Of a stretch of 64,000 nucleotides of DNA, positions 49,893-56,409 are shown in pieces (within the stretch, counting starts at the first letter, position 1; each line of letters opens with the position of its first letter). The translations under genes were made by a program, and so were the position numbers. Source of the DNA: Hungatella hathewayi WAL-18680 (GTDB lineage: Bacteria > Bacillota > Clostridia > Lachnospirales > Lachnospiraceae); contig NZ_JH379028.1 in NCBI RefSeq assembly GCF_000235505.1, forward strand, positions 717,483 through 781,482, in the 5' to 3' direction. Under the pieces are notes generated by a model. It did not search any database. It worked only from the letters and a program-made list of their open reading frames with translations, and had not been told where the DNA came from.

Positions 49893-51442
49893 GCGTTTCT
49901 CCCGTGATTTTCTTAAACACACTGGAAAACACGATGGAGGAGGAAAATCCGGTTTTCTCCGCCACCTCGTACAGCTTCATGTTGCTGCCGCTTATCATCC
50001 TCTTTGCCTGCTCAATCCGGTACTGATTGATGTAAGCGGTCAGCGACTGTCCGATTTCCTGGGAAAACAGGCGGCTTAAATAGCTGGAATTGACCCACAG
50101 CTTTCCTGCCAGCCATTCCAGTCCGATATCCTCACTGTAATTCTGCTGAATCAGAAGGACCGCCTTTTTTATCAAACTGTTTTTATTCCTGGGTGTCATC
50201 CGGCACACAGTAACCCCTGATTTTGTCCATGATGGACTGCTTGTACTCCCGGCTGCTGTCAAACTCCCGGTAAGGCTCCGCCACCGGCATTTCCCCGGCC
50301 AGGGAACATTGAAGCAGGAACTCATGGATACAGGTTTCACAGCGATGAATAAACTCCGCAGGCCGGATATTATAAAGGTTCTGTGCAATCTGCGTCACCG
50401 CCGTGTCATAACAGATTTCTATCTGCGCCATATTCCGGCTCTGCAATTCCTCCTGAAAGCGGCTCCCAAACTCCTCCAGAAATTTCCGGCACTCTTCCCC
50501 GTCCGTAATGTAATCACTGATACACAGCGTGTTCTCCTGCAGCGGATAGAACGCCAGCGGCTCCAGTTCCTTCATCCTCCGGTAGATTGTGTGGCATTCC
50601 CGGATATTGGAAAATGGAAGGCTGTAACGAACCCGGCTCTGGATTCCAAGGGGGCTGTTGTTCAAGACTTCCGCCACTTCGCAGACCTCAGCAATCACGC
50701 CATGCAGCGGCATCTTCTTCTCAAATCCAAGAAAAATCGTAAAATCTCCCATCTCGTTGGGCAGCAGGAAATACGTTTTCTCTCCCAGCTGCTCCCTCAG
50801 CGTGTGCTCAAAAAGCGCAAAGAAATGCACATTGTCATTATTGGTATACCGCTGTACCACCGCCTGGTAGTTCACAATCTGTATCATCAGAAGGACGATA
50901 TTCTGTCCTTCTTTAAAAAAGCCAAGCTCCTCCTTCAGAAGCGTCTCCATCTCCTCTAAGGCATCTCCGTCATGGTTTAACCAATAGTGAATCCGGCTGC
51001 CAATCTCCTGCTGCCGGTTGCGCAGCGCCGCCGTCTCCAGGATGGCATACTGCTGTTTCTTCTTCGCTTCCTCCGATGCCGCCTGGCTCATCCCCTTCAC
51101 CAGCTCCAGGAAGGTCTCATCTGTGATTTCATTTTTCAGGATATAATCATAACAGCCGGTGCGAATGGCCTTTTTGGCAAATTCAAATTCATCGTGGCAG
51201 GTCAGGAACGACACCACACAGGGATATTTATGACTGTCAATCCATTCCATAACCTCCAGCCCGTTCATGACCGGCATGGTGATATCGATGATGGCCAGGT
51301 CAATCTGCCGGCTCTCCATGATATCAATGACCGCCCGGCCATTTTCCGCCTCATACAGTTCGTAGCCGGCTCCCTGCCAGTCTATGGCGGTTGTGAGAAA
51401 GTCTCTCACAGCCTGCTCGTCATCCGCAATCAATATTGTCAT
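49864..51442 (-). pseudogene. YesN/AraC-type response regulator, one frameshift
   Basis: Two frames give a response regulator of about 525 residues. The first (51442 to about 50190) has the receiver domain (ILIADDEQAVRDFL; phospho-Asp in LAIIDITMPVMNG; Lys in CYDYILKNEI) and the long middle linker, ending at a stop just after PDDTQE. The second (about 50190 to 49864) continues NKNSLIKKAVLLIQQNYSED and carries the two AraC helix-turn-helix motifs (LAGKLWVNSSYLSRLFSQE; VAEKTGFSSSIVFSSVFKK). One extra base in CCCAGGAATAAAA near 50187-50192 causes the break. The remaining C-terminus is intact, so an assembly error is likely. It pairs with the kinase upstream and probably controls the sugar importer. 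Confidence 0.87.
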
Positions 51443-51468
51443 GTGGTCTCCTTTCCCTGCTGGCTTCG

Positions 51469-53223
51469 TCACAGTGGCAGCTTTGGAATTCTCGCCGTCA
51501 CGGTTGTGTAGGCTCCGTATCTGCTCTCAATTTGAAGCGTATATTCCTTCCCAAATAATGTTTCCAGCCGCTGTCTCACATTGTCAATTCCGATTCCAGA
51601 ATAGCTGGATTTCTCTTTCTGGGCGTGGCTCTCGGTGATTTTCTTCAACTGCTCGTCGGTCATTCCCATACCGTTGTCCGTGACTGTCACCAGGATGGAC
51701 TCCTCCTCGCAGACAATGGTCACCAAAACCGTTCCCGCCTCCGCCTTATCCGCGCCGAAGGCATGTACATAGCAGTTTTCAATCACCGGCTGGATTAAGA
51801 ATTTCAAGCATTTGTACTGGTAACATTCCTCATCAATATCAAAATCAATATCTACATCATCCCCGTACCGGATTCTCATAATCTGAATATAATTTTCCAG
51901 CTGCTCCAGCTCCTGGGAAAATGGAATCACATCGTCGGTACATTTAATGGTAAAACGCAGAAGGGATGCCAGGCATTCCAGTCCGTGGGAAATCTCTTTC
52001 GCGCCGATTCTGTCCGCCCTGTACCGGATGGCATTTAACGTGTTGTACAGAAAATGCGGGTTGATCTTAGATTGCAGCACCTCGTAGGACAGTCTGGCCT
52101 TCTCCTGCTCATGGCTGGTGGCCTCCTGGATGAGAAGCTCCATCCGCTCCATCAGCTGGTTGAACGCCTTGCTCAAATCTCCCATTTCCCCCTTCAGGGG
52201 CTCGCATCTGACCCAAAGCTGGTTCTCCTGTCCGGTCATCATGGCCGTCTTCAGTTTTTGAATCGGCTCCGAGATGTAGTGGCTGGACCACCGGATAAAG
52301 ACAGCCGCATATACGACATAAAATAACAGGAACAGACTTCCCGCCATGAACAGGGGCTGTTTTAAATTCAGCGCCGAAAAATCCGTGGACAGATAGAGAA
52401 ACTGTAATCCGCTCTCCGGCGCCGTATACCGGTTTACATGGTAATTTCCGTCAAAAGAGCCGGTGTCCATCTCCGATAACAGTGGATAATCCTCTTCAAA
52501 TTCCCGGGAACTGCTGTAAATCAGCCGCTCATAGGAATCCAGCACCACAAAGATATCCGTCTCCCTGTCCTGAACCACCTGATTCCATCCCGGGTAAAAA
52601 CTCTCGATGCCCAAATCAATCCGAAAGACTCCTATCTTCTGGTCCTTCAGCACATTCATCAGTCTCTGGGCAATCGGTATGGTGACACCACTTTTTAAAT
52701 ATAGTTCATCGCAGACCGCCGGCGCCACAAGATAGCTGTCCACGTCCATAGCCTCCTGATACCAGCTGCTCTGTGTCAAATCATACCAGTCCTCATTGTG
52801 GACATTCACGGAGATGGACGGCGCCCGCCGTTTGTAATAGACACTGTTTGTATTGTCCAGCACCAGCGTGATGGACGCAATGTTGGGTTCATAATAGATA
52901 ATATTGCCCAGCAGCTTGTTGGTCTGGGCGTCATTTAAATTCTTATTCCGGTTCCCGCTCTCCGAATATTCCGTGGTAATGATGTCATAGAGCACGGTAT
53001 CCGTATAGGGTTTCTCAAGCAGCTTAATCATCCGCAGATAAATCTGGTCAAAGGACACCGCCGCCGTCTGCAAAAAATCGTTCCGCGACGCGTCAATGGC
53101 CTCCAGCGCCGATTTCCGCACCTGAAAGAACAGTCCAAAACTCAGCAGGGCCAGAATGGGAAGCACCAGAAATATCTGCACCAGCGCCAGTTTTGTCTGA
53201 AAATACCAGATTTTCCGTTTCAT
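51469..53223 (-). CDS. YesM-type sensor histidine kinase
   Basis: The 584-residue kinase has an N-terminal span (VQIFLVLPILALLSFGLFF), an external sensing domain (about 45-285), a second span (PLFMAGSLFLLFYVVYAAVFI), a HAMP segment and a kinase domain with the phospho-His motif INPHFLYNTLNAIRYRADR and ATP-binding motifs (FLIQPVIENCYVHAF; VTDNGMGMTD; GIGIDNVRQRL). YesM/YesN systems control sugar uptake. It overlaps the regulator gene by a few bases downstream, and the wall-binding-protein gene lies 31 bases upstream. Confidence 0.94.
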   Translation of the reverse strand: MKRKIWYFQTKLALVQIFLVLPILALLSFGLFFQVRKSALEAIDASRNDFLQTAAVSFDQIYLRMIKLLEKPYTDTVLYDIITTEYSESGNRNKNLNDAQTNKLLGNIIYYEPNIASITLVLDNTNSVYYKRRAPSISVNVHNEDWYDLTQSSWYQEAMDVDSYLVAPAVCDELYLKSGVTIPIAQRLMNVLKDQKIGVFRIDLGIESFYPGWNQVVQDRETDIFVVLDSYERLIYSSSREFEEDYPLLSEMDTGSFDGNYHVNRYTAPESGLQFLYLSTDFSALNLKQPLFMAGSLFLLFYVVYAAVFIRWSSHYISEPIQKLKTAMMTGQENQLWVRCEPLKGEMGDLSKAFNQLMERMELLIQEATSHEQEKARLSYEVLQSKINPHFLYNTLNAIRYRADRIGAKEISHGLECLASLLRFTIKCTDDVIPFSQELEQLENYIQIMRIRYGDDVDIDFDIDEECYQYKCLKFLIQPVIENCYVHAFGADKAEAGTVLVTIVCEEESILVTVTDNGMGMTDEQLKKITESHAQKEKSSYSGIGIDNVRQRLETLFGKEYTLQIESRYGAYTTVTARIPKLPL

Positions 53224-53254: not shown

Positions 53255-53815
53255 TTACGGTATCATCGCCCCGTCAGCCCCAACCTTATATCCGTCCGGG
53301 GTTGTGGTGTTCATGAGAAGTTTTCCCAAGGTCCCGTCGGAGCGGGTGTTGAGATAATAGGCTTTCCCGTCCACAATCTGCCAGCCGGTCCGCATGGAGG
53401 CAAAAGTGCCGTCATCCACCGGGTTCATATAGAAATAGTTGCCGTCCACCTGAATCCAGCCGGTCACGGCGTGGCCGTCGGCGTTGAAGAAGTACCAGCG
53501 GGAGTCGATGTATTTCCAGCCGTTGACCGGCCAGCCGCCATCGGCGTACTGGTACCACCAGCCGGAGGGACTGTACCGCCAACCCTGTGGGTAGGAATCG
53601 TCGTCGTCCGGGCCGTCAAACTCATCCGGGCTTGTGGATATCATGGGGGAAATGGTTCCCGCCCCGTTCCATCCCGGAAATAAACGCACGGAAGTGTCGC
53701 CGCTGCCGGCCGTCTCTCCTCCCACGCCTGGCCCGCGGGCCGCCAGCGCCGCCTGGGGACTCATAAGAGCGATTGCCAGTGCCAGGGAAATACCTTTTAT
53801 CCATCGTTTCATCAT
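53255..53815 (-). CDS. Secreted cell-wall-binding (choline-binding-repeat-like) protein
   Basis: The 186-residue protein has a signal peptide (MMKRWIKGISLALAIALM, cleavage after AALA) and an acidic/Gly-rich middle. Its C-terminal half contains repeated aromatic units: GWWYQYADGGWPVNGWKYI, RWYFFNADGHAVTGWIQVDG, NYFYMNPVDDG, TGWQIVDGKAYYLN. These resemble the choline/cell-wall-binding repeats of Gram-positive surface proteins. No catalytic domain is present. It is the first gene in the string with the YesM/YesN pair; a sensory or structural link is possible but unproved. Confidence 0.8.
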   Translation of the reverse strand: MMKRWIKGISLALAIALMSPQAALAARGPGVGGETAGSGDTSVRLFPGWNGAGTISPMISTSPDEFDGPDDDDSYPQGWRYSPSGWWYQYADGGWPVNGWKYIDSRWYFFNADGHAVTGWIQVDGNYFYMNPVDDGTFASMRTGWQIVDGKAYYLNTRSDGTLGKLLMNTTTPDGYKVGADGAMIP

Positions 53816-53944: not shown

Positions 53945-53973
53945 TGGACATGAAGAAGAGGATTCTCTATAAT
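53945..53973 (+). promoter_or_regulatory. Promoter of the luxE-luxC-like operon
   Basis: TGGACA (53945-53950), 17-base spacer and perfect TATAAT (53968-53973), about 50 bases before the start codon. Confidence 0.6.
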
Positions 53974-54022
53974 GAGATTATAGAAATAAAACTGCCACAT
54001 CGGCATGGCCGGGAGGGTGAAT

Positions 54023-55159
54023 ATGGACTACCGAAAAAAGCTGTTTTTTTATCCAAAACTGTACGACCATCCCCATACGGACGCCCTCTTTGTGACGGCC
54101 ATGAAGGGAAATGCGGCCTTTCACGAAAAGCATTGTGAGGGATACCGAAAGATTCTGGCGGCTGGCCGTGTCCGGCCGGAGGATATTCATAACGTGGAGG
54201 ATTTGTCCAAACTGCCTCCCATTCCCACCCTGTTTTTCAAAAAACACCGGCTGTGGTCACTGCCGCCGGGCCGGGCTGTCTTAAAGGCAACCTCGTCGGG
54301 CACCGGAGGAATGGCCAGCCATGTGGGGTATGACGCGAAAGGTCTGGGCTTCGGCCTTGTCATGGCCGTGCGGACCGCTCTCTTTCACGGGCTGTTTTCC
54401 TTAAAACCGACCAACTACCTGATTCTCGGCTATGAGCCGGGGCGGGAGAATCACACTATCATCTCCAAGACCCAGAGCGCTTCCCGCCTTTACGCCCCTG
54501 TGATCCTCCACACGGAATACGCGCTTCGCCGCTGCCGCGGAGAATACAGGCTGAATCGACGAGGAATTCAGGAAGCGCTGGAGCGGTATGCGAAGATGAG
54601 ATGGCCGGTGCGGCTGATTGGATTTCCGGCGTATACTTATTTTCTCCTGATGGAGCTTAAAAAGGCCGGTATTTCCTACCGTCTTCCCAAAGGTTCCATG
54701 GTGATACTGGGCGGGGGGTGGAAGCAGTTTTACAAAGAACAGGTGGACAAACAGGAGCTTTACCGGCTGTTGGAGGAGACGCTTGGAATCCCGGAGAGCC
54801 GCTGTCTGGAATTCTTTGGCGCGGCGGAGCATCCCGGTATCTATTGCAGCTGCAAAAACCATCATTTTCATGTCCCCATCTATGGAAGAGTTATCATCCG
54901 GGATGTCAAAACGCTGGAACCGCTGGGGTTTGGGAAGCCGGGGATTTTGAATCTGCTCTCCCCTATGGCGGAGAGTATGCCGCTGTCCAGCATTATGACC
55001 GATGATTTGGCCGTTCTTCACCGGGGACGGGACTGTGGATGCGGGATTGACGCCCCCTACTTTGAGATACTTGGGCGGGCCGGTCTGGGAGAAATCAAGA
55101 CCTGCGCCGCCGGGGCGGAGAAATATCTGTCGTCAGAGAATAAACGGGAGGGGCTATGA
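54023..55159 (+). CDS. LuxE-like acyl-protein synthetase
   Basis: The 378-residue protein matches LuxE, the ATP-dependent enzyme that activates a fatty acid for reduction. It has the adenylate-forming signature LKATSSGTGGMASHVGYD, plus PTLFFKKHRLWSL, HPGIYCSCKNHHFHVPIYGRV (seen as FFGAAEHPGIYCS) and LNLLSPMAESMPLSSIMTDDLAVL. The C-terminal region has Cys (GRDCGCGID, shared with PaaK/LuxE relatives). The ATG at 54023 has GGGAGGG upstream; the frame's first ATG has none. It overlaps luxC by four bases, so the two proteins are probably made together, as in the LuxC/LuxE complex. Confidence 0.85.
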   Translation: MDYRKKLFFYPKLYDHPHTDALFVTAMKGNAAFHEKHCEGYRKILAAGRVRPEDIHNVEDLSKLPPIPTLFFKKHRLWSLPPGRAVLKATSSGTGGMASHVGYDAKGLGFGLVMAVRTALFHGLFSLKPTNYLILGYEPGRENHTIISKTQSASRLYAPVILHTEYALRRCRGEYRLNRRGIQEALERYAKMRWPVRLIGFPAYTYFLLMELKKAGISYRLPKGSMVILGGGWKQFYKEQVDKQELYRLLEETLGIPESRCLEFFGAAEHPGIYCSCKNHHFHVPIYGRVIIRDVKTLEPLGFGKPGILNLLSPMAESMPLSSIMTDDLAVLHRGRDCGCGIDAPYFEILGRAGLGEIKTCAAGAEKYLSSENKREGL

Positions 55160-56382
55160 GAATTTCGGAATTGAAGTCACGGATATGCAAAACGCTGGAA
55201 GGACCCGTTCCGGAACCGGAGGTCGTTCTGTCGGCCTGTCAGCGCGTGTCAGAGAAGCTTGCGCGGGGAGACTACCGGCTGCTGCTTGAGGAAACCGGGC
55301 GGGCCGGGTCTGTGAGCGCACGGGAACTGGAAGAAGCTGTGGTGATGCTCAGCCGGGACTATTTATCGGCACGGCTTGTGTTAGAGCTGGGAGTAGACTT
55401 AGAGCGGGGGGATTCCTTTCCTCTCGGTGTTCTGTTTCACATCGGCGCCGGCAATCTGGACGGGCTTTCCGCATACAGCGTCGTGGAAGGTCTGCTGGCC
55501 GGGAACATCAATCTGCTGAAGCTGCCGGCTGGGGAGCAGGGCGTCTCCGCTTTTCTTCTGAGGGAGTTAATCCGGATGGAGCCGTCGCTTCAAAACTATA
55601 TTTATGTGTTTGATTTCCCATCCTCCAATCAAAAGCGGATGCGACAGCTGATGGAGCTGTCTGACGCCGTGGTGCTGTGGGGCGGGGACGAGGCCGTCCT
55701 CTCCGTGCGCTCCCTGGCGCCACCCAATACACGGCTGATTGAGTGGGGGCACAAGTTAAGCTTTGCCTATGTCACGGAAACCGGTTTGGGGAAAGAGGCA
55801 GAACTGCTGGACCTGGCCCGCCATATGATAGAAACCGGCCAGACGCTGTGCAGCTCCTGCCAGGGCATCTACCTGGATACTGACCGCATAGATTTGGTGA
55901 AACAGTTCTCGAAGCGGTTTTTATCCGTGCTGAGACAGGCTTACGACGAAGCCGCCAGGGAAAAGGGAGCGCCGGATATGGGCGTCACCGCAAGAAATAC
56001 TCTCCGGGTCCAGGAAGCACGGATGAGCGCCATGATGAATTCTGATTCTGCGGAGAGTGCCGTCGTTTATGGAGATGGCTGTGTCAGTGTCACCGCCTCT
56101 TCCGACTGCGATTTAACGTTGTCTCTTCTATATGGAAACTGCTGGGTGAAGCCGCTTCCCAGGGCAGAAATCATCTCCGCCCTTCATGAACAGAAGAGCC
56201 ACCTTCAGACCGTGGGACTGCTGTGCGGGGAGGACGAACGTGAGGCGCTTGCCTACCTGCTCTGCCGGGCCGGCGCTGTCCGCATCTGCGATGGCGGCAG
56301 CATGTCGAAACTCCATACTCCGGGCGCTCACGACGGCGAATATCCCTTGAGAAGATACCGCCGAATCATCACAAAAGGCTGA
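55156..56382 (+). CDS. LuxC-like acyl-CoA (fatty acid) reductase
   Basis: The 408-residue enzyme of the aldehyde-dehydrogenase superfamily reduces an activated fatty acyl group to a fatty aldehyde with NADPH. Family motifs are LGVLFHIGAGNLDGLSAYSVVEGLLAGN (seen as VLFHIGAGNLDGLSAYS), VLWGGDEAVLSVRSL and the catalytic Cys region GQTLCSSCQGIYLD near 235. It directly follows LuxE with a four-base overlap. There is no luxA, luxB or luxD nearby, so light is not the output; plasmalogen-related or signal-lipid aldehydes are possible uses. A terminator overlaps its stop. Confidence 0.88.
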   Translation: MRISELKSRICKTLEGPVPEPEVVLSACQRVSEKLARGDYRLLLEETGRAGSVSARELEEAVVMLSRDYLSARLVLELGVDLERGDSFPLGVLFHIGAGNLDGLSAYSVVEGLLAGNINLLKLPAGEQGVSAFLLRELIRMEPSLQNYIYVFDFPSSNQKRMRQLMELSDAVVLWGGDEAVLSVRSLAPPNTRLIEWGHKLSFAYVTETGLGKEAELLDLARHMIETGQTLCSSCQGIYLDTDRIDLVKQFSKRFLSVLRQAYDEAAREKGAPDMGVTARNTLRVQEARMSAMMNSDSAESAVVYGDGCVSVTASSDCDLTLSLLYGNCWVKPLPRAEIISALHEQKSHLQTVGLLCGEDEREALAYLLCRAGAVRICDGGSMSKLHTPGAHDGEYPLRRYRRIITKG

Positions 56383-56409
56383 AACCCACACCGGGATTTC
56401 AGCCTTTTT
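56373..56409. terminator. Bidirectional terminator between luxC and dnaJ
   Basis: AAAAGGCTGAAA (56373-56384) pairs with TTTCAGCCTTTT (56397-56408) and the next T extends the tail. The stem includes the luxC stop codon and also serves the converging dnaJ message. Confidence 0.85.

Follow-up and report, generated by a model that had tools for sequence, protein, structure and literature searches.

LuxE-LuxC pairs in luminescent and non-luminescent bacteria

The LuxE and LuxC families are already known, and so are LuxE-LuxC pairs that occur without a luciferase. In the luminescence system each protein contributes one cysteine, LuxE a C-terminal thiol and LuxC the catalytic residue. The Photobacterium/Vibrio LuxC-LuxE complex (PDB 7xc6) resembles the pair described here in both partner families, in both catalytic cysteines and in the overall LuxC fold. 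However, our pair has no LuxAB, its identity to the luminescence proteins is low, LuxE precedes LuxC, and there is no luxCDABE operon.

LuxE and LuxC are also found in the flagellin glycosylation islands of non-luminescent Aeromonas and Enterobacteriaceae, where the glycan islands group them with genes for acyl carrier protein (ACP), FabG and AMP ligase (PMC7874193, PMC4875605). These islands and the present locus have in common the presence of LuxE with LuxC in the absence of luminescence, but the clade to which our pair belongs lacks the ACP, FabG and AMP ligase setting. What is new here is a deep, self-contained clade in gut Clostridia that has no carrier protein, no luciferase and no fixed partners. 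A search of the open-access literature returned no description of LuxE or LuxC of gut anaerobes.

Organization of the luxEC locus

The window, that is, the whole stretch of DNA that was analysed, comprises 64,000 nt of Hungatella hathewayi WAL-18680 (NZ_JH379028.1), and plain coordinates are positions in it. The first gene of the pair (54023..55159, + strand) is luxE-like and encodes a protein of 378 aa, a predicted ATP-dependent acyl-adenylating or acyl-protein synthetase according to PF04443, the 7xc6_E profile, the AlphaFold2 model and its PaaK fold. The second (55156..56382, + strand) is luxC-like and encodes a 408-aa protein, a predicted NAD(P)H-dependent acyl-thioester reductase of aldehyde dehydrogenase fold according to PF05893 and 7xc6_A. 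The stop of luxE and the start of luxC overlap by 4 nt (ATGA). The overlapping LuxE-like and LuxC-like genes of the initial annotation are thus confirmed by the open reading frames and by both Pfam families.

The luxE start is the ATG at 54023, and the N-terminus MDYR/MSYR-KLF is common to the relatives. A ribosome binding site, GGGAGG, can be read from the sequence at 54011..54016 (+ strand). About 50 nt 5' of the start there is a sigma-70-like promoter sequence, TGGACA-17 nt-TATAAT (53945..53973, + strand), which is a consensus match only, with 11 of 12 positions matching in a consensus scan. The pair is followed by an intrinsic terminator hairpin at 56373..56408 (-20.8 kcal/mol, with z -6.7 relative to 200 shuffled sequences). 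Both signals had been ascribed to the pair from the outset and are recognizable here. Since dnaJ converges on luxEC from the other side and the hairpin also faces that gene, the terminator is probably shared between them.

Upstream of luxEC lies a divergent gene for a choline-binding-repeat protein (53255-53815, - strand), adjoined by the histidine kinase and response regulator of a two-component system (50183-53223, - strand). No functional link between luxEC and these upstream neighbours was seen.

The LuxE and LuxC families are represented by one copy each in the 5.7 Mb genome. The luciferase family PF00296 has no match in this whole genome, while the control was positive in 10 of 14 genomes, which bears out the luciferase-free (no luxAB) character attributed to the pair. 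PF02273, the LuxD family, has no match in the genome either, but its control was positive nowhere. The luciferase LuxAB expected of a luxCDABE luminescence system was found neither beside the pair nor elsewhere in the genome.

Structure and catalytic residues of LuxE and LuxC

Both proteins exceed the curated cut-offs of their families. LuxE matches PF04443 with an E-value of 1.3e-42 (146.6 bits against a curated cut-off of 24.9) over profile positions 44-385 of 391, and LuxC matches PF05893 with 1.5e-51 (176 bits against 21) over positions 86-399 of 401. Against the proteins of PDB 7xc6, LuxE gives 1.5e-18 as a single sequence and 6.5e-42 by profile (7xc6_E), and the corresponding values for LuxC are 1e-9 and 3.3e-36 (7xc6_A). 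The profile alignments to this solved complex are nearly full length. The LuxC protein falls about 70 aa short of the 7xc6_A chain, which has 477 residues. However, the scores for the NCBIfam equivalogs are far short of their cut-offs (80 bits against 550 for LuxE, 48.5 against 750 for LuxC), which indicates that the pair is not a luminescence orthologue.

The same profile alignments place LuxE Cys361 (codon 55103..55105, + strand), the predicted acyl-carrying thiol, at the C-terminal GC of 7xc6_E, and LuxC Cys232 (codon 55849..55851, + strand), the predicted catalytic thiol, at the cysteine of QQACFSTQ in 7xc6_A. The former is invariant in 68 of 68 LuxE proteins and the latter in 59 of 59 LuxC proteins; further motif residues are likewise invariant in both alignments. 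Both catalytic cysteines are intact, and therefore the mutated catalytic residue that the initial annotation had named as evidence against its reading is not seen.

The AlphaFold2 models have mean pLDDT values of 87.1 (LuxE) and 92.6 (LuxC). The best solved fold match of LuxC is 7xc6_A (E 3.7e-19, TMq 0.75), an aldehyde dehydrogenase fold, with 21% identity to Photobacterium LuxC in the fold alignment. For LuxE, PaaK-type ligases rank best among the solved structures (E 1.9e-16, TMq 0.69). Its top matches, PaaK1, PaaK2, BT_0428 and ClxA, are ligases of aryl or other acids, and the best 50 fold matches are all PaaK-type or other adenylating enzymes, with 7xc6_E absent from them. LuxE shares with PaaK-type ligases (2y27, 2y4o, 4r1l and ClxA, 9s3l) the adenylate-forming fold. 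However, known PaaK ligases hand the acyl group to CoA and not to a thiol of their own, whereas LuxE is shorter and carries a C-terminal thiol.

Four residues of LuxE, C277, H283, C338 and C340, are invariant in the proteins of the window type and in the other aligned LuxE proteins of the bacterial family, and we infer that they form a metal site. Similar cysteines, in a comparable Cys...Cys-x-Cys motif, are present in the PaaK-like 4r1l and 9s3l but missing from 7xc6_E.

Distribution, conservation and gene neighbourhood

A scan of genome contigs gave 390 relatives of the window LuxE, and nearly all of the best 80 of these 390 are labelled Clostridia or other Bacillota, many of them from gut or rumen. 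Carriers include the culturable Hungatella hathewayi DSM 13479 and [Clostridium] asparagiforme DSM 15981. Of the 299 genera of its own bacterial family, about 13 carry a pair of the window type. Across the phylum, which was sampled sparsely with 398 genomes, an E-value of 1e-60 was reached by the window's own genome only.

Pairs of the window type form a deep clade. The family's remaining LuxE-LuxC pairs, whose LuxE proteins are only 25-28% identical to the window type, are set off from it by a very long branch (support 100/100). The dN/dS values of 0.09 and 0.15 for the two genes, taken from the nearest unsaturated pair, indicate purifying selection. LuxE and LuxC protein distances are correlated over 54 loci (r 0.87, a value as high in 0 of 2000 permutations), although shared descent would raise r too.

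Wherever both genes were called, at 69 of 69 loci, LuxC comes directly after LuxE, and the 4-nt overlap is present in 33. There is no third conserved gene beside the pair: the 55 adjacent co-directional genes comprise 75 Pfam families, none of them in more than three members. Consistent neighbours, whose comparison the initial annotation had proposed, were thus sought across the relatives' loci and not found. The genes next to the pair are unrelated, for instance those of leuS, trpA, ribosomal protein S16 and thiC loci. No ACP, FabG or AMP ligase gene occurs among the window neighbours or the 55 adjacent genes of relatives. Clusters of short open reading frames at six loci (L058/L063/L073 and L070/L085/L111) were considered as carrier-protein clusters, but the genes there proved to be unremarkable, with housekeeping, regulatory or unknown functions.

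The remaining LuxE-LuxC pairs and fusions in the family (loci L113-L128) resemble the window pair in gene order, catalytic cysteines and the LuxE Cys/His motif, but they cluster with carrier-protein-sized open reading frames and genes for AMP ligase, FabG, thioesterase or KASIII, which the window clade does not. In this setting they recall the LuxE/LuxC genes that occur in flagellin glycosylation islands. In other genera of the family, LuxE and LuxC are fused in a single frame (L126:7977-10478, L127:7980-10463 and L128:7986-10310), and these fusions adjoin carrier-protein-sized open reading frames and other fatty-acid-type genes.

In one of the pair-bearing genomes, G171, the LuxE-LuxC copy (L136:9100-10858) is truncated and seems to be decaying, which suggests that this genome, at least, can do without the module. 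This copy, together with the fatty-acid-type clusters around the other pairs of the family, which resemble those of flagellin glycosylation islands (PMC7874193, PMC4875605), could suggest that the window pair is a functionless remnant of a cluster for a surface glycan or a natural product. Such an origin is extremely improbable in view of the deep separate clade, the purifying selection, the full conservation of the catalytic residues, and the pair's own promoter-like site and terminator.

Predicted function of the pair

We consider that the pair is probably a two-gene operon for a LuxE-LuxC-like carboxylic-acid reductase, most likely acting on fatty acids. Families, fold and residues give good grounds to predict an ATP- and NAD(P)H-dependent conversion of acid to aldehyde. 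LuxE would adenylate the free acid with ATP, and the acyl group would be captured on LuxE Cys361. From there it would presumably pass to LuxC Cys232, where the thioester would be reduced, by NAD(P)H as we suppose, to the aldehyde. Without a luciferase, the aldehyde would presumably either undergo further reduction by a cellular dehydrogenase or enter the synthesis of lipids or metabolites.

The aldehyde dehydrogenase fold of LuxC, in which oxidation is common, and the plasmalogen synthase candidates of the hosts might also suit a pair that runs towards the acid, for the salvage or detoxification of aldehydes from plasmalogens or host lipids. We regard this direction as very unlikely, since the constant pairing with an adenylating LuxE is in keeping with the activation of an acid, and an aldehyde dehydrogenase alone would suffice for detoxification.

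The neighbourhood of the pair offers no conserved gene that would point to a substrate or a product. With respect to the substrate of the proposed acid reductase, a medium- or long-chain fatty acid is tentatively favoured because of the kinship of LuxC to the long-chain reductase. It is also possible, although we lean less towards it, that the pair reduces a non-fatty acid (aromatic, short-chain or a metabolite) for fermentation redox balance or to make a small-molecule product. The PaaK-like fold and Cys/His motif of LuxE, with PaaK1, PaaK2, BT_0428 and ClxA as best matches, point in this direction at the level of fold and motif. In addition, fatty-acid genes are not found as a rule beside the pair. 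However, LuxC is nearest to the long-chain reductase 7xc6_A in both sequence and fold, and PF04443 covers most of LuxE. Thus, from the initial annotation, an acid reductase of LuxE/LuxC type without luciferase is upheld by family, fold, catalytic residues and conservation, but the long-chain specificity is not, the LuxE model being nearest to PaaK-like ligases.

Individual loci show other genes beside the pair. Two related Clostridium strains carry a gene for cyclopropane fatty acid synthase immediately upstream (L034:8770-9957 and L035:8725-9912), a weak hint at lipids. At another locus (L131:8404-11329) the genes that come after LuxE-LuxC encode a hydrolase resembling hormone-sensitive lipase, a condensation/PapA-like protein and DUF6320, possibly an ester-forming extension. 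As a general partner, the DUF6320/condensation-type acyltransferase was discarded, as it is present in 6 of 13 pair-bearing genomes and in 101 of 299 family genomes (p 0.25).

Relation to ether lipids

Ether lipid, alcohol and signal production had been suggested as uses of the aldehyde, and ether lipid is the weakest of the three. A supply of fatty aldehydes by the pair for plasmalogens or other ether lipids could be reconciled with a review reporting that exogenous long-chain aldehydes, unlike alcohols, are used for bacterial plasmalogen synthesis (PMC9702350), and with the presence of PlsA-type marker domains in 35 of 40 pair-bearing genomes. However, the marker domain is found in 288 of 299 family genomes with or without the pair, so that there is no specific association and co-occurrence is uninformative as evidence. 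Bacterial plasmalogens reportedly derive from a diacyl lipid whose ester is reduced directly (PMC9702350). The WAL-18680 genome also encodes a protein of 1441 aa (L145:490-4815, contig C4) that is a candidate fused PlsA-like plasmalogen synthase. In this protein two activase domains are combined with DUF2229 and a weak match to HGD-D, and its size is comparable to that of the reported single-gene plsA of about 4.2-4.9 kb (PMC12838417). As the marker does not track the pair and the route starts from a diacyl lipid, luxEC is probably not needed for plasmalogens; an accessory role is conceivable, but we see little chance that aldehyde supply for ether lipids is its function.

Implications for gut Clostridia

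A bolder proposal, which we put forward as rather unlikely, is that luxEC constitutes a distinct, self-contained module with which gut and rumen Clostridia reduce an acid different from the substrate of the luminescence enzymes, making an undescribed aldehyde or alcohol that possibly acts on the host or on microbial neighbours. If active, the pair would provide strict gut anaerobes, culturable species among them, with an ATP-driven route from free acid to aldehyde, in a module that is small, compact and directly testable.
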